A DNA stretch of 64,000 bases from Bradyrhizobium sp. CCGB12 (GTDB lineage Bacteria > Pseudomonadota > Alphaproteobacteria > Rhizobiales > Xanthobacteraceae), in the NCBI RefSeq assembly GCF_024199845.1, contig NZ_JANADO010000001.1, forward strand, positions 4,588,001 to 4,652,000, read 5' to 3'. This document shows positions 10,851 to 32,939 of the stretch, in pieces (position 1 is the stretch's first letter; each line of letters opens with the position of its first letter). The notes below the pieces were generated by a model. That model did not search any database, was not told the DNA's origin, and saw nothing but the letters and a program-made list of their open reading frames with translations. Position numbers and translations under genes: made by a program.

Positions 10851-12449
10851 TCAGTCGAACAGATTGGCGAGGCGCTGCTTCATCTGGTCGGCGATGTAGA
10901 GCGCGAGGGCCTGGATGGTGGAGGTCGGGTTCACCCCGCCCGAGGTGACGAAGATGCTTCCGTCGACGATGAAGAGATTCTTCACGTCGTGCGTCCGCCC
11001 CCATTCGTTGACCACGGAGCGTTCGGGGTCGGTGCCCATCCGCGCCGTGCCGAGCAGGTGCCAGCCTCCCCAGGGAATCGGCGAGTTGATGCAGATGTCG
11101 GTGGCTCCTGCCGTCTCGAGGATCTCGCGGCCGCGGGCCAGCGCATGCTCCATCATCTTCCGGCTGTTCTCGGAGATCGTGTAGTCGATCTTCGGCGCCG
11201 GAATACCGTGGCCGTCCTTCAGCACAGGATCGAGCGTGACCTGGTTGTGCTCTTCGGGGAGGTCCTCGCAAATGGCGGAGAATCCCAGCCGATGGCCGTT
11301 GAGCTTGCGGAACACGCCGTGATGATCCGCGCCCCAGGGCAGGATGCCCTTCTGCTCGCTGACGACGGCCTCGAACACCGGCCCTGCCCCGCGCACGAAC
11401 TGCACGCCATAGCCGCGCACGAAGCCGCGCGACAGGTCCGTGTCATACCACTCCTTGCTCCACAGGCAGGTCGGCGGCGCGCGATTGGAGTCGGTCGGCT
11501 CCTTCACATAGCCGTAGATCTGCGCATAGGGGTGGAACATCAGGTTCTTGCCGACGAGGCCCGACGAATTGGCAAGGCCCTTCGGAAAGCGCGAGGAGGC
11601 CGAATTCAGCAGCAGCCGCGGCGTGCCGACGCCGTTGCAGGCGATGATGACGACATGCGCGGGCTGAAACTGTTCGACACCGTCCTTGTCGTAATAGACC
11701 ACGCCCGAGGCCATGCCGTTCTCGTCGGTGGTGATCTCGCGCACCCGGCAGTGGGTGCGCAGCTCGACACCGGCGCGCACCGCATGCGGCCAATAGGTGA
11801 TGTCGGTAGAGGACTTTGCGCCTTGCGCGCAGGCCGGCGTGCAATGGCCGAGATTGATGCAGCGCGCCCGGCCCTCATAGTCCATCGTTGCGACCGTGGT
11901 GTCCGACGGCCACCAGTGCCAGCCCAGCTTGTTCATGGCCTTGCCGATGATGGCGCCGGACAGTCCGAGCGGCTGTTGCGGCATCGGCGGATGCGTCAGC
12001 GGCGAGAGCGGATCGCCTGACAGCCCCGACGTCCCCATGATCCGGTCGTTCTCTTCGAAGAACGGGGTCAGCGCGTCGTAGTCGATCGGCCAGTCGTCGG
12101 CGACGCCGTCGAGCGTCTTCACCTTGAAATCGGAGGGATGCAGCCGCGGCCAGTGCGCGGTGTACATCACCGTCGAGCCGCCGACGGCGTTGTAGTTGAC
12201 CACCTTGATCGGTGAATTGTCATCGTTGATCGGGTAGTCCTCGGGACGGCCGCGAACGTTGGGGCTCGACGACCATTCGCCGTAGAACTTGGCCTCCCAG
12301 TCACGCCCCGTGCTGGGATATTCCGCCGGGTTCATCCAGCCGCCCTGCTCCAGGCAGAGAATATGCATCTTGGTCTCGGCCAGCGACCACGCCACCGCCG
12401 CGCCCGAAGCGCCGGCACCGATGATCAGGACGTCCACGGGGTCTTTCAT
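10851..12449 (-). CDS. GMC family oxidoreductase (FAD)
   Basis: A 532-aa glucose-methanol-choline-type oxidoreductase that oxidises an alcohol or sugar with FAD. The FAD-binding motif IIGAGASGAAVAWSLAE is at residues 9-25, followed by CLEQGG. The C-terminal signature is present as WGGWHLLGTARMGTDP, then NLFIVDGSIFVTSGGVNPTSTIQALAL with a Ser-Gly-Gly-x-Asn-Pro active-site segment. The sequence is closest in style to the bacterial gluconate/sorbitol-dehydrogenase-like branch that works with a subunit-3 protein, which lies downstream at 10212-10661. No signal peptide is seen, so any export would depend on the partner. Divergent from the nuclease gene at 12651. Confidence 0.92.
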   Translation of the reverse strand: MKDPVDVLIIGAGASGAAVAWSLAETKMHILCLEQGGWMNPAEYPSTGRDWEAKFYGEWSSSPNVRGRPEDYPINDDNSPIKVVNYNAVGGSTVMYTAHWPRLHPSDFKVKTLDGVADDWPIDYDALTPFFEENDRIMGTSGLSGDPLSPLTHPPMPQQPLGLSGAIIGKAMNKLGWHWWPSDTTVATMDYEGRARCINLGHCTPACAQGAKSSTDITYWPHAVRAGVELRTHCRVREITTDENGMASGVVYYDKDGVEQFQPAHVVIIACNGVGTPRLLLNSASSRFPKGLANSSGLVGKNLMFHPYAQIYGYVKEPTDSNRAPPTCLWSKEWYDTDLSRGFVRGYGVQFVRGAGPVFEAVVSEQKGILPWGADHHGVFRKLNGHRLGFSAICEDLPEEHNQVTLDPVLKDGHGIPAPKIDYTISENSRKMMEHALARGREILETAGATDICINSPIPWGGWHLLGTARMGTDPERSVVNEWGRTHDVKNLFIVDGSIFVTSGGVNPTSTIQALALYIADQMKQRLANLFD

Positions 12450-12650: not shown

Positions 12651-13439
12651 ATGTCCTTCCAGAAATTCTTTGCCACCGCCCGCGCTTTTGCGCTCGTTTC
12701 GCTTTTCGCCGTGTCCGGATTTCTGGCCTGTTCCGGGCCAGTCTCAGCGCTGACTGGCGCCGCGACGGTCCGTGACGGCAACTCCATCCAGGTTGGCGAC
12801 GTCACCTATCGGCTCGACGGCGTCGACGCGCCCGAACTGGACCAAGTCTGCATCGACGATCACGCCGATTCCTGGACCTGTGGCATCGAGGCCCGCGACC
12901 AGCTGGCGAAGCTGATCGGCAAACGAACGGTGCGCTGCGACGATGTCGGGCCGGAAAAGAGCTTTGGCAAGCGCCACCGCGCCATCTGCACGGCCGACGG
13001 CGACAAGACCAGCTTGAACGAGCAGCTGATCAAGCTCGGCTTCGCCATCGCGCGCGAGCCGATCAAGGCCAACGTCAAGCCGGCCGCGACTGAAGCCAAG
13101 ACGGCGGCGGCTGGGATCTGGAAAGGTTGCTTTGTTGCACCGCAAGATTTTCGCACCGGCAAGAAGGACGGCGCGCTCCTCGGCAACGCCTGCCGCCCGG
13201 ACCGCGACAAGGAAATCCGTGCCGTGCTGTTCCCGGAGGAGCTGACGATGCCGCCGAGTTGCAGCATCAAGGGCAAGCTCGCGGTGCGCGCGCGCGTCAC
13301 TGGCAATATCGGCATCTATCATCTGCGGGGGTGCCCGAGCTATCCGGCGACCACCAAGCCGGACCGCTGGTTCTGCTCGGAGGACGACGCCCAGGCGGCC
13401 GGCTTCCGCAAGGCCTATAATTGCCGCCGGCCAAAGTGA
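12651..13439 (+). CDS. Secreted thermonuclease-like (SNase) protein with C-terminal Cys/His segment
   Basis: A 262-aa protein with an N-terminal signal peptide (basic start, hydrophobic run [16 protein letters not shown]; a lipobox-like Cys is possible). Residues about 35-150 form a staphylococcal-nuclease-like domain: [26 protein letters not shown], then GKRTVRC and [13 protein letters not shown]. The catalytic Arg/Glu pattern is only partly conserved, so activity is not certain. The C terminus ([21 protein letters not shown]...[10 protein letters not shown]) matches the Cys/His segment often attached to such nucleases and to Ada-type metal-binding modules. The ribosome site is weak (GCGAG). 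It stands alone, with 370 bases downstream before the cyo operon. Confidence 0.88.
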
Positions 13440-13523
13440 AAAGTTCGATCACACAGCTGTGAGTAGTATTCCGAGACCGTATTGATCCGGAATTGAACCG
13501 AATCGAGAGTTGCTGCACCTAAT

Positions 13524-13650
13524 GAACATACGCAAGCGCCTTGCGCGAGCGTGTTCCTTGGCAGCAATCCGGCTTCGGCCCGATTGCCTTGCTCGGGCGT
13601 TTCCTCCCTAGACTTGGGCCGCTTGTCATCACAAGCGGCTCTTCTTTTTT
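13524..13650 (+). ncRNA. Candidate trans-acting small RNA (three hairpins; AbcR/alpha-r15-like anti-SD segment)
   Basis: Three successive hairpins can be drawn. Hairpin 1 (13524-13556) pairs GAACA..CGC..GCGC with GCGC..GCG.TGTTC. Hairpin 2 (13564-13587) pairs GCAATC with GATTGC, continues with three inner pairs and closes on a C(UUCG)G tetraloop. Hairpin 3 (13618-13639) is a perfect 9-bp terminator stem followed by a T-rich run. Between hairpins 2 and 3 lies an unpaired TTTCCTCCC (13600-13608), complementary to Shine-Dalgarno sequences. Three stem-loops with an exposed CCUCCC segment are the layout of the rhizobial AbcR/alpha-r15 and alpha-r14 sRNAs, which repress ABC-transporter mRNAs. Identity with that family is inference from architecture. 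A possible -35 TTGAAC lies at 13493; the -10 is unclear. It could instead be the structured 3' UTR of the nuclease mRNA. Confidence 0.5.
13618..13650 (+). terminator. Rho-independent terminator
   Basis: GCCGCTTGT and ACAAGCGGC pair perfectly (9 bp) around a 4-base loop CATC, followed directly by TCTTCTTTTTT. This is the strongest intrinsic terminator in the window. It ends the candidate small RNA, or the nuclease transcript 180 bases downstream of its stop codon. Confidence 0.88.
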
Positions 13651-13672
13651 GTGCATCAATACTAATCGAGAC

Positions 13673-13758
13673 CGTCATGCCCGGACTTGTCCCGGGCATC
13701 CAAGTTCTTCGCGCCGAAGAGCAAGACGTGGATGGCCGGGTCAAGCCCGGCCATGACG
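13673..13758. repeat. Intergenic inverted repeat, family B, copy 1
   Basis: Begins CGTCATGCCCGGACTTGTCC and ends with the near-inverse (GGTCAAGCCCGGCCATGACG). CCGGGCATCC and GGATGGCCGG form the inner arms. A second copy is at 59745-59830. It lies between the terminator at 13650 and the convergent end of the cyo operon. Confidence 0.88.
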
Positions 13759-13809
13759 ACGTGGAAACGTCAGCACATCAAAACGTTTTGTTCTATCGCC
13801 ATCAATGAC

Positions 13810-14196
13810 CTACTGCCGCATCATGATGCGGTCCATCGGCGGCATGTTGGCGTTGAGATGCGCCATGATCCAGACGGTTCCTCCGACCACCAGGAAGACG
13901 ACGAGAAGCCCGAAGGCGAGCGCCAGCACGTTGTTGGTGTTGTCGGGGCCGGTGGTGATGTGCAGGAAGAACACCAAATGCACGCCCATCTGCGCGATCG
14001 CGAGCACGATCAGCGCGACGGGAATGGAAGGTTGCCAGACCAGATCGGTTCCAGCGATGAAGAACGACGTCGCCGTGAGCAGCAGCGCCAGGACAAGGCC
14101 GACGACGTAACCGAGGATGCGGGTGCCGAGACTGTGTTGCTCTTCCTCGCCGGGCGCGAGGTCATGGTCGGTCCGCGCATGCGTCTGATCGCTCAT
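13810..14196 (-). CDS. cyoD: Cytochrome o ubiquinol oxidase subunit IV
   Basis: A 128-aa small membrane subunit of the bo3-type quinol oxidase, thought to help assemble the copper/haem centre of subunit I. Three hydrophobic helices are visible: ILGYVVGLVLALLLTATSF, SIPVALIVLAIAQMGVHLVF and VLALAFGLLVVFLVVGGTVW; the motif QMGVHLVFFLHI is typical of CyoD. The start at 14196 has GGGAG 7 bases upstream, and its ATG overlaps the cyoC stop (ATGA), showing translational coupling. The frame is open for 50 codons further upstream, but that part is cyoC in another frame. Last gene of cyoABCD. Confidence 0.93.
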   Translation of the reverse strand: MSDQTHARTDHDLAPGEEEQHSLGTRILGYVVGLVLALLLTATSFFIAGTDLVWQPSIPVALIVLAIAQMGVHLVFFLHITTGPDNTNNVLALAFGLLVVFLVVGGTVWIMAHLNANMPPMDRIMMRQ

Positions 14197-14834
14197 ACCG
14201 CACTCCCAAGCAGGTAGACGACGGAGAAGACCCCGACCCAGATGATGTCGAGCGCATGCCAGAACAGCGCAAAGCACATCATCCGGCGCAAGACGTCGGC
14301 GCGAAAGCCCTTTGCGAACACCTGGGCCATCATGGTGAGGAGCCATAGCACGCCGGCCGAGACGTGCAGACCGTGGCAGCCGACCAGCGAGAAGAACGCG
14401 GTCAGGAACGCGCTGCGCGACGGGCCGTAGCCGCGCGCGACGAGATCGGCGAATTCGCGGAACTCGATGACGAGGAATATGAGCCCGAGCACGCAGGTCA
14501 CGGTCATGCCGAGATAGAACCAGAACCGGTTGCGCACATCGGCCGCGATGCTGGCCATGCCGCAGGTGAAGCTCGACAGCAACAGGCAGACTGTCTCGAT
14601 CGCGACGTTCTTCTGCTCGAAGATCTCCGCGCCCTTCGGGCCGCCGGCGGTCTGGCCGACCAGCACCGCATAGGCTGCAAAGAAGCAGGAGAACATCACG
14701 ATGTCCGAGAGCAGGAAGACCCAGAAGCCGTAGGCGGTCACGATCCGCTTCGACGCGGGTCCGGGATGCTCGATGATGACGCCGATGTGATGGGGATCGG
14801 CGTGCGCGTGGCCGGCGGTTGCGGTCATCGCCAT
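14193..14834 (-). CDS. cyoC: Cytochrome o ubiquinol oxidase subunit III
   Basis: A 213-aa five-helix membrane subunit of haem-copper oxidases. The motifs FWVFLLSDIVMFSCFFAAYAVL, GCHGLHVSAGVLWLL and the final FWHALDIIWVGVFSVVYLLG are diagnostic of subunit III, and the short five-helix form is that of quinol oxidases. The N terminus carries several His residues (HAHADPHH). The ATG at 14834 shares a base with the cyoB stop (TGATG), and a second ATG two codons on is an alternative start. Encoded in the inner membrane complex with CyoA, B and D. Confidence 0.95.
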   Translation of the reverse strand: MAMTATAGHAHADPHHIGVIIEHPGPASKRIVTAYGFWVFLLSDIVMFSCFFAAYAVLVGQTAGGPKGAEIFEQKNVAIETVCLLLSSFTCGMASIAADVRNRFWFYLGMTVTCVLGLIFLVIEFREFADLVARGYGPSRSAFLTAFFSLVGCHGLHVSAGVLWLLTMMAQVFAKGFRADVLRRMMCFALFWHALDIIWVGVFSVVYLLGSAV

Positions 14835-16834
14835 CAGGCTGCTCCCGCCATGCTGACGAGCTTGCGCCGTTCCTCGAGATTGATGCGGTCTATCGCTGCG
14901 ACCTCGTCGGCCGGAATGACGTACTCATCATGGTCGCGCCAGGCGAACACGACGAAGGTCGCGAAGGCGCCGAGGCCGCCCAGGATCACCATCCACCAGA
15001 TGTGCCAGATCAGCGCAAAGCCCATGACGGTGGCGAAGAACGCGCAGACAAAGCCGGTCGGCGAGTTCCGGGGCATCTCGATATCATGATATTCGGGCTC
15101 CTCACGCTCCAGCGATTGCTGCTGGGCACGGGCCTTCATGTCCCAATAGGCATCCTCGCCGCGCACGTCAGGATTGAACGCGAAATTGAACGCCGGCGGC
15201 GGCGACGAGGTCGCCCATTCCAGCGAGCGCCCGTCCCAGGGATCGCCGGTGCGGTCGCGCAAGGCCTCGCGGTTGCGGATGCTGACGACGAGTTGCACGA
15301 TCTGGCAGATCACACCGATCGTCAGCACCGCCATGCCGATCGCTGCAACGATCATCCAGGGCCGCCACGCCGCGACGTCATAATGTTGCATGCGCCGCGT
15401 CATGCCGAGCATGCCAGCGATATAGAGCGGGACGAAGGTGATGAAGAAGCCGAGGAAGGTGAACCAGAACCCGGCCTTGCCCCAGCGTTCGTCGAGGCGG
15501 AAACCGAACGCCTTCGGAAACCAGTATTCGAAGCCGGCGAAGGCGCCGAACAGCACGCCGCCGATGATGACGTTGTGGAAGTGCGCCACCAGGAACATGC
15601 TGTTGTGGAGCATGAAGTCGGCCGGCGGCACCGCGAGCAGGACGCCCGTCAATCCGCCGACGATGAAGGTCACCATGAAGCCGACCGCCCACAGCATCGG
15701 CGTCGCGAAGCGGATGCGGCCGCCATACATCGTGAACAGCCAGTTGTAGATCTTCACCCCCGTCGGCACCGCGATGATCATGCTGGCGATGCCGAAGATG
15801 GCGTTGACGTCGGGCCCTGCTCCCATCGTGAAGAAATGATGCAGCCAGACCATGAAGGAGATGACGCAGATCGCCATGGTGGCGAGCACCATCGAGCGGT
15901 AGCCGAACAGCGCCTTGCCGGAAAAGGTCGAGACCACCTCGGAGAAGATGCCGAAGGCCGGCAGCACCAGGATGTAAACCTCCGGATGGCCCCAGGCCCA
16001 GATCAAATTCATGAACATCATGACGTTGCCGCCGGCCTCGTTGGTGAAGAAGTGGAAGCCGAGGTAGCGGTCGAGCAAGAGCATCGCGAGCGTGGCGGTG
16101 AGGATCGGAAAGGCTGCGACGATGAGGAGATTTGAGGCCAGCGTGGTCCAGCAGAACATCGGCATGCGCAGATAGTTCATGCCCCGGGTGCGCAGCTTCA
16201 GCACCGTGGTGACGAGATTGATGCCGGCCACCAGCGTCCCGACGCCCGAGATCTGGAGTGACCAGGCATAGTAATCGACGCCGACGCCTGGCGAGTAGGA
16301 CAATTCCGACAGCGGTGGAAAGGCGAGCCAGCCGGTGCGGGCGAATTCGCCGACCACGAGCGAAATATTGACCAGCAGCGCGCCGGTCGCGGTCAGCCAG
16401 AAGCCGACCGAATTCAGCGTCGGGAAAGCGACATCGCGCACGCCGAGTTGGAGCGGCACGATCAGGTTCATCAGCCCGATCACGAACGGCATCGCCACGA
16501 AGAAGATCATGATGGTGCCGTGCGCCGAAAATATCTGGTTGTAGTGCTCGGGCGGCAGATAACCCTGCGACTGGTAGGCAACCGCCTGCTGGATCCGCAT
16601 CATGATGGCATCGCTGCCGCCGCGCAGCAGCATCACCGAGGCCAGCAGCACGTACATGACGCCGATGCGCTTGTGATCGACGCTGGTGATCCATTCGCTC
16701 CAGAGATAGGGCAGATGTCCCTTCACCACGACCCAGGCCAGCACGGCAAGGATCGCGACCAGCACCACCGCGCCCGCGGCAAGCGGAATCGGCTGATCGA
16801 ATGGAATGGCCGACCAATCGAGCTTACCGAGCAT
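14834..16834 (-). CDS. cyoB: Cytochrome o ubiquinol oxidase subunit I
   Basis: A 666-aa proton-pumping catalytic subunit that reduces oxygen to water with electrons from ubiquinol. Haem and copper ligands are visible: His in FSAHGTIMIF (low-spin haem), the His-Tyr pair of WAWGHPEVYILVLPAFG (CuB), WLHHFFTMG (CuB) and the two His of LVAHFHNVII (haems). About 15 hydrophobic helices are present, as in CyoB of other bacteria. The ATG at 16834 has GGAGG 7 bases upstream and is preferred to one 30 bases earlier; it overlaps the end of cyoA by 11 bases. The operon has no cyoE (haem O synthase) in this window. Confidence 0.96.
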   Translation of the reverse strand: MLGKLDWSAIPFDQPIPLAAGAVVLVAILAVLAWVVVKGHLPYLWSEWITSVDHKRIGVMYVLLASVMLLRGGSDAIMMRIQQAVAYQSQGYLPPEHYNQIFSAHGTIMIFFVAMPFVIGLMNLIVPLQLGVRDVAFPTLNSVGFWLTATGALLVNISLVVGEFARTGWLAFPPLSELSYSPGVGVDYYAWSLQISGVGTLVAGINLVTTVLKLRTRGMNYLRMPMFCWTTLASNLLIVAAFPILTATLAMLLLDRYLGFHFFTNEAGGNVMMFMNLIWAWGHPEVYILVLPAFGIFSEVVSTFSGKALFGYRSMVLATMAICVISFMVWLHHFFTMGAGPDVNAIFGIASMIIAVPTGVKIYNWLFTMYGGRIRFATPMLWAVGFMVTFIVGGLTGVLLAVPPADFMLHNSMFLVAHFHNVIIGGVLFGAFAGFEYWFPKAFGFRLDERWGKAGFWFTFLGFFITFVPLYIAGMLGMTRRMQHYDVAAWRPWMIVAAIGMAVLTIGVICQIVQLVVSIRNREALRDRTGDPWDGRSLEWATSSPPPAFNFAFNPDVRGEDAYWDMKARAQQQSLEREEPEYHDIEMPRNSPTGFVCAFFATVMGFALIWHIWWMVILGGLGAFATFVVFAWRDHDEYVIPADEVAAIDRINLEERRKLVSMAGAA

Positions 16835-17657
16835 CGTGGCCTCCACTGTGCGGACGGCCGGCATCGGAGAGCAGCTCCGGCCCGGGCCCCGGCGGAATGT
16901 GCTGGGTCGCGATCAGGTCGAACAAGCGCGGGTCTTCGAGGCGGTAGACCGGCCGGCCCTTCTCGATGCCCTGCTGCATCAGCTTCTTGTAGCTGTCCGC
17001 ATTCAGCACGGCATCGGTCTTTGCGGTGGTCGCCACCCAGTCCGGAAAGGCGAGCGGCGAGACCACGTTGACGTCGAACATCATGTCGGGGAATCCGTCG
17101 CCGGAGAAATGCGCGGACAGGCCCTGGAGCTTGCCTTCATTGTCGGCGCGCAGGTTCAGCTTCGTCACCATGCCGTTCATGGTGTAGATCATGCTGCCGA
17201 GCTGGGGGATGAAGAACGTGTTCATCACGCTCGACGATGTCAGCTGGAAATTCAGCTCGGCCCCGGCCGGTACCGTCAACGTGTTGACGGTGGCGATGCC
17301 CTGGTCCGGATAGATGAACAGCCATTTCCAGTCGAGCGAGACGGCCTGGATGCGCACCGGGCTGCCGGTGCCCGGCACGGGCGCCGCGGGATCGAGCTGG
17401 TGCGAGCCGATCCAGGCGACGCCGCCGAGCAGGATGACGGTAAGCGCCGGGATCGCCCACACCACCATCTCGACGCGCCCGGAATAGACGAAGTCGGGCT
17501 GGAAGCGCGCCTTCGGATTCGACGCGCGAAACCAGAACGCGAAGCCCAGGATCGCGATGATGGTCGGCACCACGATCACGAGCATGATGAAGACGGAATC
17601 GACCAGGATGGTGCTGTTGGCCGCAGCCACAGGTCCTTGCGGATCGAGCAGATTCAT
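16824..17657 (-). CDS. cyoA: Cytochrome o ubiquinol oxidase subunit II
   Basis: Subunit II of the bo3 quinol oxidase, about 277 aa. Two N-terminal membrane helices (STILVDSVFIMLVIVVPTII and VEMVVWAIPALTVILLGGVA) precede a cupredoxin-like domain (LDWKWLFIYPDQGIATVN) that lacks the CuA ligands, as expected for a quinol enzyme. The sequence from MNLLDPQGPV aligns with E. coli CyoA just after its lipoprotein Cys. Here no lipobox Cys is present, and the frame upstream only reaches a TTG (17723) without a signal-peptide-like stretch. The ATG at 17657 is therefore my choice, with a weak ribosome site; the true start may differ. First gene of the operon. Confidence 0.88.
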   Translation of the reverse strand: MNLLDPQGPVAAANSTILVDSVFIMLVIVVPTIIAILGFAFWFRASNPKARFQPDFVYSGRVEMVVWAIPALTVILLGGVAWIGSHQLDPAAPVPGTGSPVRIQAVSLDWKWLFIYPDQGIATVNTLTVPAGAELNFQLTSSSVMNTFFIPQLGSMIYTMNGMVTKLNLRADNEGKLQGLSAHFSGDGFPDMMFDVNVVSPLAFPDWVATTAKTDAVLNADSYKKLMQQGIEKGRPVYRLEDPRLFDLIATQHIPPGPGPELLSDAGRPHSGGHDAR

Positions 17658-17889
17658 CGGCAAGCCACTGGCGGTTGGAAAGCCCCGAGCGGAAGCGTAG
17701 CGCGAAACACGCCCCCGCACCAAATGCAGTTGTATGACGGCGGTTCCGAAAGCCGTCTTTCAGAACCGCCCGATCTCGCGTGACGGCATGCAATTCCATG
17801 CGATGTCAATGACATGAGCGCGGGGCGGCCGGCCTTCTCACTGCCGTGCCCCGTTGCTATCGTCGGCAAAAGCAGCGGGATGGAACGAG

Positions 17890-31694: not shown

Positions 31695-32939
31695 ATGATC
31701 CGCTACCCGCGACGGACGGTGTTACGGGCGGGCGCAGCCTTGGTCGGCGCGTCCGCATTGGGATTTCCCGCAATTGTGAGAGCGCAGGCCGAGAAGATCC
31801 GGATCGGCCATCTAACGCCGCTGACCGGCTTTCTCGGCGTGATCGGCGGCTACGCGCAGTTGGGCGTGAAGCTCGCGGCGGAGGAGATCAACGCATCCGG
31901 CGGCATCGTGGGCAAGCAGATCGACCTCATCTCGGAGGACTCGATCAACCCGGCAACCGCATCGACCAAGGCGCAGCGCATGCTGGAGCAGGATGGTGCC
32001 GTGGTGCTGCTCGGCGAAATCTCCTCGGCCTCCTCGCTCACCATCATGCAGGTTGCCGAGCGCAACAAGAAGGTGTTCTTCTCGACCGGCGCGCGCTCGG
32101 ACGCGCTGCGCGGCAAGAACTGCAACAAATACTCCTTCCATTGCGACATCCCCAACACCGTGATGGTGAACGCGGTCGGCACCGCGCTGTCGCAGAAGGG
32201 CATGGTGAAGGGCAAGAAGTTCTTCACGCTGACGGCCGACTACATTTTTGGTCATGACCTCCTGAAGGCGGCCAAGGGCTTCTTCGGCACGCATGAGGCC
32301 AATCTGATCGGCGACGAGTTGATCGCAACCGATGTCACCGACTTCAGCCCGTACCTGCTCAAGGTGCGGCAGGCAAAACCCGACGTCGTCTGCTGCAACC
32401 TCGCCGGCAACCAGGTGACCAACCTCGTCAAGCAATATGCCGAGTTCGGCCTGCCCTATCCGCTGGTCGGGTTCAATCTCAACACCGGCGATGCCTGGGC
32501 CGCCGGCGCCGGCAATCTCAGCGGCACCTGGCCGACGGTCTGGTATCACACGCTGAACAACCCGGCCTCGCAGGCCTTCGTCGCGGCATTCACCAAGAAA
32601 TACGGCAAGCCGCCGGAAAACCACGCCTGGATCGAATATGTGACGCTCAAGCTGCTGGCGGAGGCGGTCAACACCACGAAGTCGACCGACAGCGGCGAGC
32701 TGATCGCCTATTTCGAGAAGCAGACCCAGTTTGACATCATGAAAGCGCGCAAGGCCTATTTCCGCAGCTGGGATCACCAGCTGGTGCAGGAGGCCTATCC
32801 GTTCACCGTCAAGCCCAAGGACCAAATGAAGGATCAATGGGACATGCTGGTGCTGGGCGATGCGGTGCCGGCGGCGAACGATCAGCTGGAGACGATCTAT
32901 CCGACCAGGGAACAGAATCCCTGCGAGATGAAGGCTTGA
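31695..32939 (+). CDS. ABC transporter substrate-binding protein (branched-chain amino acid/amide type), Tat-exported
   Basis: A 414-aa periplasmic binding protein of the LivJ-like class. The N terminus RYPRRTVLRAGAALVG is a twin-arginine signal, followed by GFPAIVRAQA and cleavage near residue 33. The family core IRIGHLTPLTGFLGVIGGYAQLGVKLAAEEINASGGIVGK is clear. GGGAGGAG gives the start at 31695. It leads an operon with a LivH permease and a fused LivM-LivG-LivF protein. The ligand is unknown; with the IclR regulator and the divergent ThDP enzyme it may be an organic acid or amino-acid derivative rather than a standard branched-chain amino acid. Confidence 0.92.
   Translation: MIRYPRRTVLRAGAALVGASALGFPAIVRAQAEKIRIGHLTPLTGFLGVIGGYAQLGVKLAAEEINASGGIVGKQIDLISEDSINPATASTKAQRMLEQDGAVVLLGEISSASSLTIMQVAERNKKVFFSTGARSDALRGKNCNKYSFHCDIPNTVMVNAVGTALSQKGMVKGKKFFTLTADYIFGHDLLKAAKGFFGTHEANLIGDELIATDVTDFSPYLLKVRQAKPDVVCCNLAGNQVTNLVKQYAEFGLPYPLVGFNLNTGDAWAAGAGNLSGTWPTVWYHTLNNPASQAFVAAFTKKYGKPPENHAWIEYVTLKLLAEAVNTTKSTDSGELIAYFEKQTQFDIMKARKAYFRSWDHQLVQEAYPFTVKPKDQMKDQWDMLVLGDAVPAANDQLETIYPTREQNPCEMKA

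Follow-up and report, generated by a model that had tools for sequence, protein, structure and literature searches.

The locus between the nuclease gene and the cyo operon

The DNA analysed here is a stretch of 64,000 nucleotides from Bradyrhizobium (the window). The segment under study, 13524-13650, lies behind a nuclease gene and in front of a convergent cyo operon, as the first-pass annotation had it. The features of the region are listed below in window coordinates.

12651-13439, plus strand: upstream nuclease gene (SNase, PF00565; from Pfam)
13449-13462, no strand: TCAC-N6-GTGA palindrome lying before the promoter-like block, which may be bound by a regulator (from conservation)
13479-13521, plus strand: putative promoter with the conserved block GTATTGATCCGGAATTGAAC (13479-13498), a -35-like TTGAAC (13493-13498), 17 nt, and a -10-like CACCTA (13516-13521) (from conservation)
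13528-13650, plus strand: small RNA (sRNA), 5' end placed at about 13527-13530 by the promoter-like spacing, 3' end by the terminator
13528-13554, plus strand: hairpin 1 (from the fold; two-sided changes at four of eight core pairs)
13556-13597, plus strand: enlarged hairpin 2 of 42 nt with a UUCG loop, where the standard copies have a small hairpin (from the fold)
13579-13656, plus strand: match to RF00519 (suhB/MmgR/alpha-R8), 58.4 bits, E 1.9e-9
13600-13608, plus strand: 9-nt motif TTTCCTCCC, unpaired in the predicted fold
13600-13615, plus strand: predicted pairing segment TTTCCTCCCT-AGACTT, i.e. the alpha-R8 10-mer plus flank (from conservation; the 10-mer is common to Caulobacter)
13616-13650, plus strand: intrinsic terminator, an 11-pair stem followed by a T-run
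13810-17723, minus strand: cyo operon for a terminal oxidase, convergent, with cyoD as the closest gene (open reading frames named by eye)

Two hairpins, an exposed UUUCCUCCC and the terminator follow each other in this order on the plus strand, and all the structural elements read from the letters in the first-pass annotation, including the UUCG loop, the unpaired motif and the 9-bp terminator with its T-run, were recovered in place. CCUCCUU is the anti-Shine-Dalgarno (anti-SD) end of 16S rRNA. The terminator stem has nine perfect base pairs (13618-13626/13631-13639) and a total of 11 pairs spanning 13616 to 13641, after which comes TTCTTTTTT. The fold energy of 13524-13650 is -54.2 kcal/mol (z -4.06), and none of 200 shuffles was equally stable. 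The terminator scan alone was not above chance, with three sites in 2.2 kb as compared to 1.7 (sd 1.4) in shuffles. The mean unpaired probability of the 9-nt motif is 0.67 in G000 and 0.78 across 46 orthologues (minimum 0.49); in full-length folds of these 46 the mean probability was 0.94 for the long helix 2 and about 0 for the short helix that Rfam models. We infer a length of about 123 nt for the sRNA.

Positions 13480-13499 exhibit a mean identity of 98% among 54 orthologues, above that of the DNA on either side, and TTGAAC or a close variant, followed after 17 nt by CAYYTN, is present in 49 of the 54. This block may be the promoter and would then set the 5' end. A sigma-70 scan of the region gave no promoter match, and the -10-like box is poor, since RpoD promoters of B. 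japonicum are described as TTG-N16-18-TATA (PMC4842269) and the box is far from TATA. In the palindrome further upstream the arms are 96-98% conserved per position and the centre 46-94% (54 orthologues). When 13481-13497 was used as a regulon motif, 20 sites were found at three or fewer mismatches versus three for the reversed control; besides the window site, none had fewer than two mismatches.

Between the sRNA terminator and cyoD there is also a large, REP-like inverted repeat (GTCATGCCCGGACTTGTCCCGGGC ... GCCGGGTCAAGCCCGGCCATGAC, 13674-13757); REP elements have been described for Bradyrhizobium (PMC5082802). The frame 16824-17723, the only cyo frame scanned, had no Pfam match. No description of this locus was found in the literature searched.

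Family and conservation of the sRNA

The only Rfam family above its cut-off across the 64-kb window was RF00519, suhB/MmgR or alpha-R8, with 58.4 bits against a cut-off of 41, and the part matched is the 3' half of the sRNA. Alpha-R8 is the family of Sinorhizobium MmgR and Caulobacter SisA-D (PMC12559287). As in that family, the 10-mer UUUCCUCCCU lies in a stretch that is single-stranded in the predicted folds, and a Rho-independent terminator is formed by the 11-pair stem and T-run; upstream of the 10-mer, where alpha-R8 has a weak hairpin, there is a hairpin that is longer and different. The first-pass annotation had instead assigned the layout to the AbcR/alpha-r15 and alpha-r14 classes, and this assignment did not hold. 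In a permissive Rfam scan of 13200-14200 the eight other matches were not close to their own cut-offs, and the nine matches with an E of at most 10 did not include alpha-r14 (only the best of overlapping same-clan matches being kept). The alpha-r15 model (RF02345) was above its cut-off of 40 bits nowhere in the genome, with 150 of 247 first-look candidates scored; its best scores, 15.0 and 14.8 bits, came from two weak sites outside the sRNA segment. As a control, the same model passed in five of 150 order genomes, with scores as high as 127 bits in a different family; none of the five came from the family of the window, where the one weak match scored 29.3 bits.

The sRNA is conserved. The 10-mer is identical in all 54 aligned orthologues, and of the six positions that follow, five are 100% and one is 98% identical. 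The alignment of Bradyrhizobium sequences that the first-pass annotation had proposed turned up compensatory changes in hairpin 1, where 98.9% of the cells are paired and four of eight pairs have two-sided changes (46 distinct orthologues). The hairpin 2 lower stem and the terminator are paired to 99.4% and 99.8%, respectively, in the same 46; covariation says little for these two, given a single two-sided change in the terminator and none in the lower stem. Overall, 99.4% of the structure is paired, compared to 30-59% when the partners are slid by one to three columns. Four of five covariation measures were above nearly all shuffles, with the caveat that related sequences can beat shuffles without any structure; the measure "further pair types" was not, its observed value being reached by 316 of 500 shuffles. 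The upper part of hairpin 2 occurs in two alternatives, exemplified by CAATCCGGCTTCGGCCCGATTG and ACGATCCTCATCGGATTGT, and when the two sets were aligned separately helix 2 was paired to 99.2% (31 sequences) and 100% (14 sequences); L080, one of the 46 orthologues, belongs to neither set.

The long form was found in 92 of 190 sampled Bradyrhizobium genomes. Among the matches listed from a family-level search of 198 genomes, only those in members of the genus took in the 5' part, and all others started no earlier than query position 56. A degenerate pattern run against a named collection returned 64 records: 62 labelled Bradyrhizobium, with B. diazoefficiens SZCCT0449 and B. barranii subsp. apii 1S5 among them, one labelled 'Frankia sp. 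RB7' and one Bradyrhizobiaceae MAG. The Frankia-labelled record (L394) carries a Bradyrhizobium-type locus and its label is probably wrong. The gene order is conserved: the nuclease gene is the next gene on the same strand in 50 of 50 loci, and in the named collection it lies on that strand within 300 bases in 62 of 64. In the latter set the promoter-like block lies upstream of the sRNA in 58 loci (two loci having less than 85 nt of upstream DNA), and 57 have a convergent cyoD no more than 1.5 kb away (some stretches end early).

This conserved order, with hairpin 1 on the same strand about 90 nt past the nuclease stop codon (13439), could also mean that the segment is just the tail of the nuclease mRNA (3' untranslated region plus terminator), with no start of its own, and another alpha-R8 copy (L004) does lie directly behind an alanine dehydrogenase gene. 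On the other hand, the DNA that separates the stop codon from hairpin 1 contains the promoter-like block, whose conservation exceeds that of its flanks, and the standard copies L001 and L002 start with a comparable hairpin 1, for which reasons we regard a mere mRNA tail as unlikely. A translated short open reading frame spanning the segment is vanishingly improbable. Mechanically called frames exist, e.g. 13551-13808 on the plus strand (85 aa) and 13415-13744 on the minus strand (109 aa), but the single-base indels among the orthologues and the exchanged upper part of hairpin 2 preserve pairing and not frame, which is unfit for a coding sequence, and this candidate was rejected. Most likely the segment is a genuine small regulatory RNA gene of the alpha-R8/MmgR family and not an AbcR gene; the trans-type sRNA with an exposed anti-SD segment suggested by the first-pass annotation is borne out as an RNA that is conserved and covarying in Bradyrhizobium.

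Sister copies and the divergent hairpin 2

The genome holds four RF00519 sites, with 74.6, 71.6, 58.4 (the window copy) and 52.6 bits. The best one lies between an N-formylglutamate amidohydrolase (FGase) gene and an inositol-monophosphatase gene; in most species a single copy adjoins FGase (PMC12559287), and the window copy differs from the FGase-linked copy. A match to RF00519 was found in 194 of 195 genomes of the genus, with up to 12 per genome. Five suhB copies were counted in B. japonicum by Corbino et al. 2005 (PMC1273637), and these may include the window copy. The fourth copy, L004 at about 1501-1574 (G000:C1:5954014-5954087), starts directly after the alanine dehydrogenase stop codon, and similar copies (L226, L229, L230) lie behind similar-looking upstream sequence. 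L004 may be an sRNA derived from the 3' end of an mRNA.

For comparison, 54 standard copies were taken as the best-scoring matches from Bradyrhizobium and other genera of the family, L004 being left out. At the position of hairpin 2 all 54 of these top-scoring copies have GCCCUCCUUGGGCG, and in all 54 GCCCTCCTTGGGCG directly precedes TTTCCTCCC, folded as a small hairpin in 50. In contrast, only one of 54 aligned long forms has CCTCC within 75 nt before the 10-mer. The CCUCC loop is also absent from L004 and from the further divergent copies L226-L232, which came up via a pattern favouring CAT at that place. Judged from these sequences, the window copy is not alone in lacking the CCUCC loop; its long hairpin is unique among the copies seen. 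Hairpin 1 of the divergent long forms L067, L073 and L074 closely resembles that of L001 and L002, and hairpin 1 therefore looks ancestral and hairpin 2 exchanged.

It is possible, though on balance doubtful, that the window copy is a subfunctionalised alpha-R8 paralogue, which after duplication would have acquired its own promoter region beside cyo and swapped the CCUCC-loop hairpin for a long closed one, so that two anti-SD-like motifs became one and the target set narrower, possibly including a MaoC-like gene (see below). This reading was weakened by the other divergent copies that also lack the CCUCC loop.

Candidate targets and proposed mode of action

In Caulobacter the SisA 10-mer pairs with the leader of a TonB-receptor mRNA and represses it, as proven by compensating mutations (PMC12559287); direct targets of MmgR are described as not known (PMC7143759, PMC12559287). 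Because the sister copies share the 10-mer, no target can be assigned to the window copy alone. The arrangement GGGAGGAAA-N4-9-ATG occurs at eight sites in the genome versus one for the reversed control. Among the eight are a MaoC-like gene, a GMC oxidoreductase gene, a binding protein (L138, PF13407) and a short-chain-dehydrogenase-like gene (by eye). The two candidates in the window are:

10851-12449, minus strand: GMC oxidoreductase gene with leader GGGGGAGGAAAAGG, candidate local target (Pfam; predicted duplex -19.1 kcal/mol)
31695-32939, plus strand: binding protein of a Liv-type ABC importer (PF13458) with leader CGGGAGGAGACAGACATG, candidate target (Pfam; predicted duplex -19.7 kcal/mol)

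The GMC oxidoreductase gene lies 1.1 kb from the sRNA. It was rejected as a conserved target, GGGAGGAAA being present in only 24 of 49 orthologues and most others keeping a variant of the SD core. The MaoC/mesaconyl-CoA hydratase-like gene (L117 1051-1503, G000:C1:135863-136312) lies beside CoA-transferase-like and CitE-type-lyase-like genes (by eye), and its leader AGGGAGGAAAC is perfectly complementary to the sRNA over 11 nt. AGGGAGGAAA precedes this gene in 24 of 31 genomes with the long form versus none of 18 without it (p 5e-8), in a count that covers 49 of 80 sampled genomes. For the long-form genomes G018, G061, G063, G066, G071 and G078 no close full-length homologue was listed, and the count excludes a second G043 gene, 83% identical, that lacks the site. 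The association is confounded by descent: of the 18 genomes lacking the long form, 15 have a gene that is only 74-77% identical, and further alpha-R8 copies sharing this 10-mer occur as well. Descent explains much of it, and the MaoC-like gene is kept as a lead only, possibly a target. In several genomes leader GGGAGGAAACAA also precedes a gene for a small protein (55-70 aa, MRWKIS...SVHW or SVRW; L139, L233, L234 and L242), a possible conserved target; the L233 protein had no Pfam match.

An ABC importer operon in the window had been put forward as a possible target in the first-pass annotation, and its binding-protein gene does qualify as a candidate. The predicted duplex with the Liv-type binding-protein gene ranks fourth among 48 window genes (best start per gene). 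In a motif test on 40 genomes, leaders with AGGGAGGAAA preceded solute-binding proteins in 11 of 44 clusters. The control leader AAAGGAGAAA did so in none of 53 (p 8e-5), but its SD is weaker (-8.6 vs -10.4). The AGGGAGGAAA set comprised 98 of 99 sites, L118 being omitted since it lies inside a reading frame, and two duplicate sites were merged by clustering; frames of at least 60 aa were obtained from 70 of 100 entries, and L226-L232, which are the opposite strand of alpha-R8-like sequences and not leaders, were not counted in any of the seven cases. For the control, 88 of 100 sites were used, 65 with a frame of at least 60 aa, and binding proteins were sought by Pfam (25 of 51 families, plus single scans) and otherwise by reading the N-terminus.

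In an unsorted test, 653 called genes from the window plus 40 stretches (864 kb) were compared. The SD score decided which start was used, and similarity to 12 seeds, the importer protein of the window among them, identified 11 binding-protein genes (two from the window) but overlooked at least one further probable one (L461:6922). The seed duplex was stronger for binding-protein genes than for the other genes (-15.4 vs -12.0 kcal/mol, p 0.0016), and so was the SD (p 0.0004). Once SD was accounted for, the residual preference gave p 0.30; comparison with SD-matched genes gave p 0.33 by energy and p 0.05 by runs of at least seven contiguous pairs. This test weakened the enrichment of the motif test, which is not claimed to be specific. 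A preference for binding proteins does exist in these sequences and need not stem from the sRNA; ABC-transporter targeting is plausible.

The binding-protein leaders, together with hairpins accompanied by an anti-SD segment, are what an AbcR (alpha-r15) sRNA repressing ABC-transporter mRNAs would give, and since alpha-r15 and alpha-R8 are related, alpha-r15 being in part homologous to suhB according to a review (PMC7143759), the resemblance seen in the first-pass annotation was a reasonable one. Nevertheless, an AbcR identity is very unlikely, with the alpha-r15 model reaching its low genome maximum elsewhere and passing in no sampled genome of the family, with the motif control being handicapped by a weaker SD, and with the preference gone once SDs were matched.

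The explanation we favour, and hold with considerable confidence, is an extra alpha-R8 copy with SisA-like action. The locus would be a stand-alone gene for an MmgR-type sRNA, seen only in Bradyrhizobium among the genomes sampled and apparently fixed between the nuclease gene and cyo. Hfq association is reported for MmgR and SisA (PMC12559287); in a similar mode the unpaired UUUCCUCCCU(AGACUU) would, with Hfq, pair with G/A-rich ribosome-binding sites and repress translation. Its own upstream region and the enlarged, closed hairpin 2 without the CCUCC loop set this copy apart from the standard ones. Alpha-R8 RNAs are widespread in Alphaproteobacteria, with few members studied, and Bradyrhizobium species are legume symbionts that keep several copies. 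Comparing sister copies that differ in hairpin 2 is a natural way to ask what role the part before the 10-mer plays and why copies are retained, and the adjacency to cyo raises the question of oxygen- or carbon-dependent expression.

Among known systems, MmgR/alpha-r8 (RF00519) of Sinorhizobium meliloti shares the core sequence, the exposed 10-mer and the terminator with the window copy, which differs in being an extra copy at another locus, in its enlarged hairpin 2, and in its inferred length as compared to the 77 nt of MmgR (PMC7143759). SisA-SisD of Caulobacter crescentus are likewise four alpha-R8 copies in one genome with the same 10-mer, but the hairpin before their 10-mer is described as weak (PMC12559287) whereas that of the window copy is long. 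AbcR1 and AbcR2 (alpha-r15), 114-120 nt in length (PMC7143759), resemble it in combining hairpins with anti-SD segments, and differ in that the alpha-r15 model does not match the sRNA of the window.
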